DNA from: Candidatus Geothermarchaeota archaeon
GTDB taxonomy: Archaea > Thermoproteota > Nitrososphaeria > Geothermarchaeales > JDFR-13
NCBI GenBank assembly: GCA_015523725.1
Contig: WAJV01000001.1
Span: forward strand, 1 to 47,374
DNA: 47,374 bases
Direction of reading: 5' to 3'
In this document: positions 42,807 through 44,792 of the stretch, in pieces
Layout: the number at the start of each line of letters is the position of its first letter
Numbering within the stretch: position 1 is the stretch's first letter
Translations under genes and position numbers: made by a program
Notes under the pieces: model-generated
Database searches by the model: none
What the model was told of the DNA's origin: nothing
The model's input: the letters and a program-made list of their open reading frames with translations, nothing else

Positions 42807-42882
42807 ACAAAAACAACCAATATAAAAACAAACATTATATATAACAGTAATAGCTATACACAAATAAAACATAGCGAAAACC

Positions 42883-42892
42883 ATTTAAATAA
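42883..42892 (+). promoter_or_regulatory. TATA box of the RHH/aspartic-protease module
   Basis: ATTTAAATAA is preceded by the purine-rich GCGAAAACC, a BRE-like element, and lies 22-32 bases before the ATG at 42915. Transcription would start at or next to the ATG, giving a leaderless mRNA, consistent with the lack of a Shine-Dalgarno motif there. Confidence 0.45.
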
Positions 42893-42914
42893 TAATTAAA
42901 TATATTTTATTTAC

Positions 42915-43235
42915 ATGGGTCTAATAACCGTATCATTAAACGACGAAGTTGAGAGAACTCTAAGGAAACTAGCTAGAGAAATGTATGGAAACAAAAAAGG
43001 AGCACTATCAAAGGTAATAGAGACAGCTATAGAAAAATTGGCAGCAAGAAAACAATATACAGAAAAGCAAACCATATACCGAGCCTACAAGAACAATAAA
43101 TTGATAACCGAGGCCTCCTCCCTAGAAGAACTAGCCGAGAAACTAAATCAAAGAGGAGTGGATCCAAGGGAAGTGAGAATACTGGCCACTGAAGACATCA
43201 AACCAAGAGCCAGAATAGGATACAGGATGAAATAG
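42915..43235 (+). CDS. Ribbon-helix-helix protein with C-terminal DUF5678-like region
   Basis: A 106-residue protein. Residues 1-45 fit a ribbon-helix-helix DNA-binding fold: a short strand LITVSLN, then DEVERTLRKLAREMY and KGALSKVIETAIEKLA as the two helices. The second half (IYRAYKNNKLITEASSLEEL and DPREVRILATED) resembles the small DUF5678 domain. RHH proteins of this size often are antitoxins or autorepressors. The next gene, a DTG aspartic-protease-like protein, begins two bases after the stop, so the two form one unit, and a leaderless promoter precedes them. Which target the pair acts on cannot be read from sequence. Confidence 0.72.
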   Translation: MGLITVSLNDEVERTLRKLAREMYGNKKGALSKVIETAIEKLAARKQYTEKQTIYRAYKNNKLITEASSLEELAEKLNQRGVDPREVRILATEDIKPRARIGYRMK

Positions 43236-43237
43236 AG

Positions 43238-43645
43238 ATGACGCCTCAAATAGTTGACAGAACACCGGTAATTGAGATAATGATAGAAAACCCCCTCCTA
43301 AAGAAGACATACCCGAAGGAAGGAGCTGTAATAGCGGTTATCGACACAGGATACGAAGGATTCCTACTAATACCAGAAGACATATTCAACCACCTAGGAT
43401 TCAACCAACTAAAAACAATAAAAAGACAACTAATCCTACCCAACGGAGAAACAATAACCTCAGAAGGATTCTACGGAAAAATAATCCTAACCCAAATAAA
43501 CCAAAGCCGAGAAGGATACATAGAAACAATAAAAAACCTAACAGAAATAGTAATCGGAACACAAGCCATAAAAAACCTCAAACTAACACTAGACTACTGC
43601 ACAAACACACTACACACAAAACCATGCCAAACCAAACCCCCATAA
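43238..43645 (+). CDS. Clan AA (retropepsin-like) aspartic protease, AF_0612-like
   Basis: A 135-residue protein with the clan AA aspartic-protease signature AVIDTGYEGFLLIPEDIF (Asp at about residue 37), followed by a flap-like strand region (LILPNGETITSEGFYGKIIL) and a second conserved end IVIGTQAIKNLKLTLDY. It is one retropepsin-like lobe, so an active enzyme would be a dimer. It fits the archaeal and cyanobacterial DTGF/AF_0612 family. The last 15 residues are a Thr/Pro/Lys-rich tail. It starts two bases after the RHH gene. Protease activity has not been established for this family to my knowledge; a toxin-antitoxin or regulated-proteolysis role is inference. Confidence 0.75.
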   Translation: MTPQIVDRTPVIEIMIENPLLKKTYPKEGAVIAVIDTGYEGFLLIPEDIFNHLGFNQLKTIKRQLILPNGETITSEGFYGKIILTQINQSREGYIETIKNLTEIVIGTQAIKNLKLTLDYCTNTLHTKPCQTKPP

Positions 43646-43735
43646 AAAAAGGGTCAGAGGGACCAAAAACCAATCACCAAACAATCATAACTGCTCCAGT
43701 TCATCATCCCCCCAAACCAAAAAACAAACAAAAAA

Positions 43736-43773: not shown

Positions 43774-43886
43774 GCCGGGGTAGCTCAGCGGCGGAGCAGA
43801 AAAACCCTCCGAGGCCGGACTCATAATCCCCCCGAAAGGGGGAAGCAGACATCCGGAGGTCGCGGGTTCAAGTCCCGCCCCCGGCA
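43774..43886 (+). tRNA. tRNA-Met(CAU), elongator-like, with two introns
   Basis: Acceptor GCCGGGG/CCCCGGC, D stem GCTC/GAGC, T stem GCGGG/CCCGC, discriminator A at 43886, anticodon CAT at 43822-43824. The anticodon stem CCGGA/TCCGG joins the D arm properly only if 16 bases (43798-43813) are removed between positions 25 and 26. That intron has outer helix CGG/CCG, central helix CGGA/TCCG and bulges GCA and AGG. A second, 25-nt intron (43826-43850) sits at 37/38 and contains a CCCCC-GAAA-GGGGG hairpin; its bulge-helix-bulge is imperfect. The mature tRNA is 72 bases. It lacks the A1-U72 and three-GC features of an initiator; an Ile tRNA with modified C34 is a less likely alternative. Confidence 0.92.
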
Positions 43887-43967: not shown

Positions 43968-44792
43968 CTATCTTCTTCTTGCTAAGCCTAGTTGTTTCTC
44001 GGTTATGCTGAACCCTATTTCGTTTAGGAATCTATTTACATGCAGTTTTCTGTAGATAGCTATAGAGTAGATATCATAGTTTGTCTTGATTTTCTCCCCA
44101 TTCTTTTTAACTGAAACTCTCCCTGCCCTAAAGTTGAGATATGGTCCGGTGGCGATGACAGTGAAGTATTTCATTAGTAAATATTGTACATAATGTAGTA
44201 GCTCTATATTGCTGTTAAATAGGACTATTTTTTTACATCTATAGTTGCTTCCATCGCTGTCATATAATCCCCTCAAGAAATGTCTAACTGTATCCTTATT
44301 ATGTTCAATGTAGGGCTTTAGTGTCTCTAGAGTCTGTTTCCTGTACCATGTATAGAATGCTTTGGAGCTATAAGTTACTTCCCATCCATAGTTTCTGCCT
44401 CTCTGTATCCCTATCCAGACCGGCTTCACCACGTTTTTGGTTAATAGCTTAGCCAACGCTCTTGAAAACTTGTCTGCAAATTCATAGTCTATAGTATTCA
44501 GTTTAATATCATAATGATGGCTATGTATTTTAATACATCCATCCCCGTGAAGCACCCCGATTATGTATGCTAGTTCCTTTGAGGGTTCTGGCCGCCACCT
44601 TGCTGTTGGAGGCTTATGTTTCCGATATTTCCAATAATGCAACAGACTCTTTTTTGTTGTCGGCCAGCCAAGAATCTTGCATACTTCTGTTGGGCCATGG
44701 TCCTTCAACAGCTCCATAGCCCTTAAATACTCATCATAAGAATAAGACCTATACTTCCTCATAATCCTATCATCCAGAAGGATACGATTCAT
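43968..44792 (-). CDS. Free-standing LAGLIDADG homing endonuclease-like protein
   Basis: A 274-residue protein. An N-terminal helix-turn-helix-like part (GPTEVCKILGWPTTKKSLLH, about 33-52) precedes two LAGLIDADG motifs: LAYIIGVLHGDGC (about 74-86) and FLRGLYDSDGS (about 167-177). The acidic residue of each motif is present, so the nuclease may be active. It is not embedded in another gene here, but lies 81 bases past the two-intron tRNA-Met gene, converging with it. Its start overlaps the 77-residue gene upstream by 23 bases; Met11 (44762) is an alternative start. Composition differs from the core genes, suggesting recent transfer. Confidence 0.85.
   Translation of the reverse strand: MNRILLDDRIMRKYRSYSYDEYLRAMELLKDHGPTEVCKILGWPTTKKSLLHYWKYRKHKPPTARWRPEPSKELAYIIGVLHGDGCIKIHSHHYDIKLNTIDYEFADKFSRALAKLLTKNVVKPVWIGIQRGRNYGWEVTYSSKAFYTWYRKQTLETLKPYIEHNKDTVRHFLRGLYDSDGSNYRCKKIVLFNSNIELLHYVQYLLMKYFTVIATGPYLNFRAGRVSVKKNGEKIKTNYDIYSIAIYRKLHVNRFLNEIGFSITEKQLGLARRR

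Follow-up and report, generated by a model that had tools for sequence, protein, structure and literature searches.

Introduction

Among the described prokaryotic proteases of the retropepsin type is PADLOC PEPT_D (PDLC01133), an 'Aspartyl protease, in the type III operon in Sulfolobales', and the regulation of this CRISPR-linked protease system appears to be uncharacterised. The sections consulted of the 2025 CRISPR classification (PMC12669027) name caspase- and Lon-family proteases, and not aspartic ones, among type III effectors. In bacteria, RloA is described, in the consulted sections of the relevant paper, as a secreted enzyme that cuts glutamate-rich peptides and has other operon partners; those sections mention no DUF5678 or ribbon-helix-helix (RHH) partner for either RimB or RloA (PMC12239564).

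Here we describe two small genes, 2 bp apart on the plus strand of a 47,374-nucleotide stretch of archaeal DNA (the window): ORF1 (42915-43235; 106 aa), encoding an RHH-DUF5678 protein, and ORF2 (43238-43645; 135 aa), encoding a retropepsin-like clan AA aspartic protease. An earlier note on this sequence had placed both genes correctly. Literature searches on DUF5678 and on retropepsins with CARF, with toxin-antitoxin systems and with RHH, which took in few subscription papers, turned up no account of this pairing, and, should such pairs prove toxin-antitoxin-like, we know of no other protease-based kind. Because the pair recurs across many archaea, DUF5678 is probably a dedicated regulator of archaeal retropepsins, possibly a toxin-antitoxin-like one, and this pattern beyond the window is more interesting than the window itself.

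Results and Discussion

ORF2 scores 61.1 bits against TIGR03698 (curated cut-off 57.35 bits), which bears out its recognition in the earlier note as a retropepsin-like DTG protease. Its AlphaFold2 model, of modest confidence (mean pLDDT 71), has a single lobe like the retroviral proteases, and in Foldseek the best matches were nearly all retropepsins, headed by HIV-1 protease (E=1.2e-4, probability 1.00) and including the Rickettsia conorii enzyme (5c9f); a search of solved structures by sequence gave nothing meaningful. Across 11 aligned homologues D36, T37, G38, G41, F42, E103, G107, C121 and C130 are invariant. These take in the catalytic triplet Asp36-Thr37-Gly38 (43343-43351, plus strand), whose Asp had been numbered 37 but is residue 36 when counted from the ATG at 43238; the hydrophobic-hydrophobic-Gly retropepsin motif IVIG (residues 104-107; 43547-43558, plus strand), flanked by E103 and ending in G107; and the pair Cys121 and Cys130 (43598-43627, plus strand), which may form a disulfide. 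Given the TIGR03698 score, the invariant motif residues and the retropepsin structural matches, ORF2 is likely to be catalytically competent and would then act as a protease.

The partner, ORF1, is predicted to have two helices (residues 10-24 and 30-47), then a beta-beta-alpha-beta domain (55-91) and, from residue 94, a disordered tail (pLDDT <50). Residues 1-47 (42915-43055, plus strand) form the predicted RHH region: ORF1 itself matches RHH_6 (PF16762) weakly (E=0.025; 15.6 bits against a gathering cut-off of 27), and 10 of its 11 homologues match the same family (E up to 0.5; best E=1.4e-7). The likeness to DUF5678, also proposed earlier, proved real but divergent. The window's ORF1 had no match to the DUF5678 profile (PF18929), below or above its gathering cut-off, and one of the 11 homologues gave a match at E=0.14; profile-profile comparison (hhalign) of the C-terminal domain with canonical DUF5678 gave 93.9% and E=1.6e-7. 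A bridging protein (L182) passes the Pfam cut-off for DUF5678, has an RHH-like N-terminus with RYGYSKGAISK and a tail RLGWR, and is followed by a DTGYEGF protease. On these comparisons and the model we read residues ~53-91 (43071-43187, plus strand) as a divergent DUF5678 domain. The C-terminal tail (residues 94-106; 43194-43232, plus strand), with the motif RARIGYRMK, is conserved, G102 and R104 being invariant in 11/11 homologues (position 104 is K in two homologues added later), and it is a candidate protease-contacting peptide. A structure search with the ORF1 model returned no significant match. Pfam matches of ORF1 to RPM2, RapA_C and others, and an NCBIfam match to NifM, fell below cut-off and were set aside as chance.

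Recurrent pairing, the check proposed in the earlier note, was found in archaea. The protease is present in 5 of 61 related genomes, a patchy distribution, with ORF1 directly upstream in all five, and in the wider subfamily, which spans Thermoproteota and Archaeoglobales, an ORF1 homologue lies directly upstream of the protease at 25/25 loci, with short gaps or overlaps between the genes; at two of these loci (L040, L155) the partner is present with a broken frame. Loss of the catalytic Asp in most homologues had been named as grounds for abandoning the idea, and it is lost at 0/25 loci. The divergence of ORF1 and that of ORF2 are correlated over 22 pairs (r=0.86; 0/5000 permutations), a correlation that shared genome ancestry could also give. 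Most genomes carry one copy of the subfamily pair. Virus contigs probed with both protein alignments yielded no relatives, plasmids probed with three retropepsins yielded none, and DUF5678 was absent from 151 genomes of the class to which a Bacillota genome belongs. A match in Halalkalibacterium (L019) covered only 16 residues and was rejected; searching the genome brought up no relative.

The locus lies among ribosomal genes and a tRNA gene; to the left of the pair are what we take, from reading their sequences, to be ribosomal-protein-type, prefoldin and FtsY-like genes. Alignment with two other genomes outlines a cassette of promoter and both genes (42825-43645, plus strand; ~820 bp, with an uncertainty of a few bp at either end), which the sister genome G001 carries at the same site. 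In a genome of the same genus (G002) the site is cleanly empty and its flanks are near-identical: the S19e gene, the intergenic flanks, a small-RNA-like element and the tRNA gene are all there, and the cassette is missing. The ~0.8-kb cassette is therefore gained or lost as one discrete piece. Between the window's genome (G000) and G001 both genes are under purifying selection (dN/dS ~0.12 for ORF1 and 0.27 for ORF2; 0.13 for the neighbouring S19e).

A TATA box, TTTAAATA (42884-42891, plus strand), starts 31 nt 5' of the ORF1 ATG, a leaderless geometry. Because most of 22 subfamily loci share exactly this -31 start of the TATA box, leaderless transcription of the pair is plausible. The stretch from TATA box to start codon is nearly identical between the window and G001 and the sequence just 5' of the TATA box has diverged, with no conservation of a BRE; of the BRE/TATA pair reported earlier, the TATA box thus stands and the BRE does not. 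A dyad-symmetry test for an RHH operator across the loci gave a combined p of 0.0015, to be read with the TATA box being itself palindromic and the shuffles preserving base composition only; the window's own promoter showed no palindrome excess in this test.

Immediately right of the cassette is a C/D-box-like small RNA (43649-43713, minus strand; GATGATGA ... CTGA, with a GGG/CCC terminal stem), conserved in G001 and at the empty site of G002 and, more distantly, in G005 and G006; a search of Rfam at gathering cut-offs did not report it. A tRNA gene with a CAT anticodon region and one or more apparent introns follows at 43774-43886, found by Rfam and missed by ARAGORN, and its inserted parts differ strongly among the window, G001 and G002. 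Just behind it is a LAGLIDADG-like ORF (43968-44792, minus strand; PF14528, E=1e-13), and to the right of the tRNA gene the window diverges from the sister genomes.

Beyond the subfamily, DUF5678 was matched in 75 of the 398 genomes sampled from the phylum. We scanned 60 sampled canonical DUF5678 loci with a retropepsin HMM trained solely on loci that had been found via the protease. With this separately trained HMM a retropepsin was the next gene downstream of DUF5678 in 28/60, upstream in 0 and on the opposite strand in 1; after one HMM iteration the figures were 40/60, 0 and 2, leaving about one third of the sampled canonical DUF5678 genes with no detectable adjoining retropepsin. This bears on the alternative that the two genes have only their operon in common and their products make no direct contact. 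The ordinary purifying selection on both genes would suit it, but pairing at 25/25 loci over two phyla, the strong orientation bias and the joint absence of both genes at the empty site make it quite improbable.

Approached from the other side, the retropepsins that TIGR03698 detects can be sorted into four settings: that of the window; further RHH-DUF5678 pairs, whose tails include GWSSIALE and FGMSLFE; retropepsins behind CARF or RAMP proteins of type III CRISPR loci with DUF5678-resembling C-terminal ends, the CARF proteins being Cas_APE2256 with an SSO1393 winged helix; and solitary, multi-copy retropepsins with no partner, which are common. The CARF tails match RHH-linked DUF5678 (85.5%, E=5.7e-6). 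Since they match canonical DUF5678 poorly, and the RAMP tails compare weakly, the CRISPR link is no more than suggestive at the level of the tails.

Three loci (L159, L160 and L161) have DUF5678 with no recognisable RHH, followed by a retropepsin, and a basic, RWPMRKR-type tail that is conserved. At L021, L024, L026, L031, L032, L034, L042, L072, L076, L087 and L110, in large archaeal genomes of 2.2-3.0 Mb, a retropepsin directly follows a CARF, RAMP or DUF5678-like repeat protein, at some of them with overlapping genes. The window's own genome holds two further DUF5678 genes. At L195 (G000:C80:2500-4663) another RHH-DUF5678 gene precedes what is left of a retropepsin, spread over two frames and with NTG for DTG, which we read as a decayed protease beside an intact partner; decay of this sort is often seen in toxin-antitoxin loci. 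The third DUF5678 protein (L203; G000:C67:1-1400) has the tail GEWGWSSIDP, and the downstream sequence at hand holds no retropepsin.

Across these loci the constant unit appears to be DUF5678 and its tail plus the retropepsin, with RHH, CARF/RAMP or nothing as a variable anchor. Because many pairs have no DNA-binding domain on the partner, and others have CARF or RAMP, it is DUF5678 and not RHH that is the conserved partner. The toxin-antitoxin or proteolytic-switch shape that had been suggested for the pair still fits, but its description as an unstable DNA-binding partner controlled by a protease was too narrow, for the same reason.

The main rival, modelled on ImmA with ImmR or IrrE with DdrO, is a switch in which the retropepsin, on a signal, cuts the RHH-DUF5678 repressor, for example in its linker or tail, and thereby lifts the repression of the operon or of genes farther away. 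Such a switch would be in keeping with an RHH protein that shares an operon, and a promoter of leaderless geometry, with a protease of its own, and the tail, conserved yet disordered in the model, would offer a natural cleavage site. However, since so many pairs lack a DNA-binding domain, repressor cleavage is not the general role; moreover no other target genes were identified, and ImmA and IrrE are metallopeptidases while ORF2 is aspartic. We regard this switch as unlikely, and DUF5678 more likely regulates the protease than serves it as a mere substrate.

Regulation might also be positive: DUF5678 could serve as substrate adaptor, as chaperone or as scaffold for dimerisation, a helper on which the activity of the retropepsin depends, and the N-terminal domain (RHH, CARF or RAMP) would then direct the enzyme to DNA, a cyclic-oligoadenylate signal or a Cas complex. 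A constant DUF5678 with swapped localising domains agrees with this, and the CRISPR-linked versions suggest recruitment. Against it, the classic antitoxin gene order and the translational overlap suit an inhibitor equally well or better, and solitary retropepsins apparently work with no adaptor; we think a positive role rather unlikely.

We propose instead that the pair is a self-regulating, toxin-antitoxin-like protease module, in which DUF5678 binds and restrains the protease and the RHH adds autoregulation; we give this reading a probability of about 0.48, and infer from it the complex, the inhibition, the autorepression, the trigger and the toxicity. ORF2, as a single retropepsin lobe, would work as a homodimer with two Asp36. 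ORF1 would dimerise via its RHH, bind the AT-rich region from TATA box to start codon and repress the operon, while its DUF5678 domain and conserved basic tail would bind the retropepsin and keep it inactive, with the tail probably placed inside or close to the active-site cleft. If ORF1 were lost or displaced, the protease would be freed and the operon derepressed. A basic tail near a catalytic Asp pair resembles, in principle, the pepsinogen propeptide, a likeness that we offer as a lead only. Exchange of the N-terminal module with a constant partner-facing part is typical of antitoxins, and we take DUF5678 to be the protease-facing part because it likewise stays constant while the module before it varies.

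A toxin-antitoxin-like module is favoured by the 25/25 pairing, short gaps or overlaps, correlated divergence, orientation bias and N-terminal swaps, and also by the disordered yet conserved tail, the patchy distribution and the same-genus empty site. Against it, most genomes hold a single copy, in contrast to toxin-antitoxin families that are heavily amplified, neither a virus nor a plasmid was found to carry the pair, and about a third of DUF5678 genes have no adjoining retropepsin. Since solitary retropepsins are common, a partner is not required by all such enzymes.

We further suggest, more tentatively and at somewhat less than even odds, that DUF5678 is a general retropepsin-control module across archaea whose N-terminal part is exchanged: RHH in autoregulated toxin-antitoxin-like pairs, CARF or RAMP in type III CRISPR signalling, and none in plain pairs. 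Retropepsins would in that case be effectors of archaeal stress or antiviral defence. These considerations give DUF5678 and the archaeal retropepsins a testable role, and tie stand-alone two-gene modules to a protease family associated with CRISPR; should DUF5678 prove inhibitory, enzymes resembling HIV protease would have a naturally occurring inhibitor in it.

Comparison with known systems

ORF2 is like TIGR03698 (clan_AA_DTGF) in scoring above the curated cut-off, in its DTG and hydrophobic-hydrophobic-Gly motifs and in its retropepsin fold. Within that family at large it belongs to a subfamily set apart by (Y/F)EGF after the DTG, the invariant C-terminal Cys pair and the RHH-DUF5678 partner, whereas many of the sampled TIGR03698 members in Thermoproteota are solitary. 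The bacterial RimB and RloA (PMC12239564) and the R. conorii enzyme are also prokaryotic and retropepsin-like.

PADLOC PEPT_D is likewise a retropepsin directly behind a protein with a DUF5678-resembling C-terminal end (CARF or RAMP). In contrast, the partner in the window is an RHH protein, and the locus is beside ribosomal genes and a tRNA gene and not in a type III CRISPR locus; ORF2 matches PEPT_D weakly (E=1.2e-4, against 3.4e-29 for L026), which leaves it outside that family.

With ImmR/ImmA and DdrO/IrrE the pair shares the neighbouring of a repressor with a dedicated protease. Those systems combine XRE HTH repressors with zinc metallopeptidases of COG2856, whereas the window pair combines an RHH protein with a member of an aspartic protease family.

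The layout is that of type II toxin-antitoxin systems with RHH antitoxins (FitAB, VapBC and CcdAB type): a small two-gene operon with the regulator first and an overlap or short gap, a DNA-binding RHH N-terminus and a partner-facing C-terminus, distributed patchily and as a discrete cassette (5/61 genomes, with the empty site in the same genus). The window pair differs from these systems in that its putative toxin is an aspartic protease, and in that the partner-facing part of its regulator is a folded DUF5678 domain with a tail.
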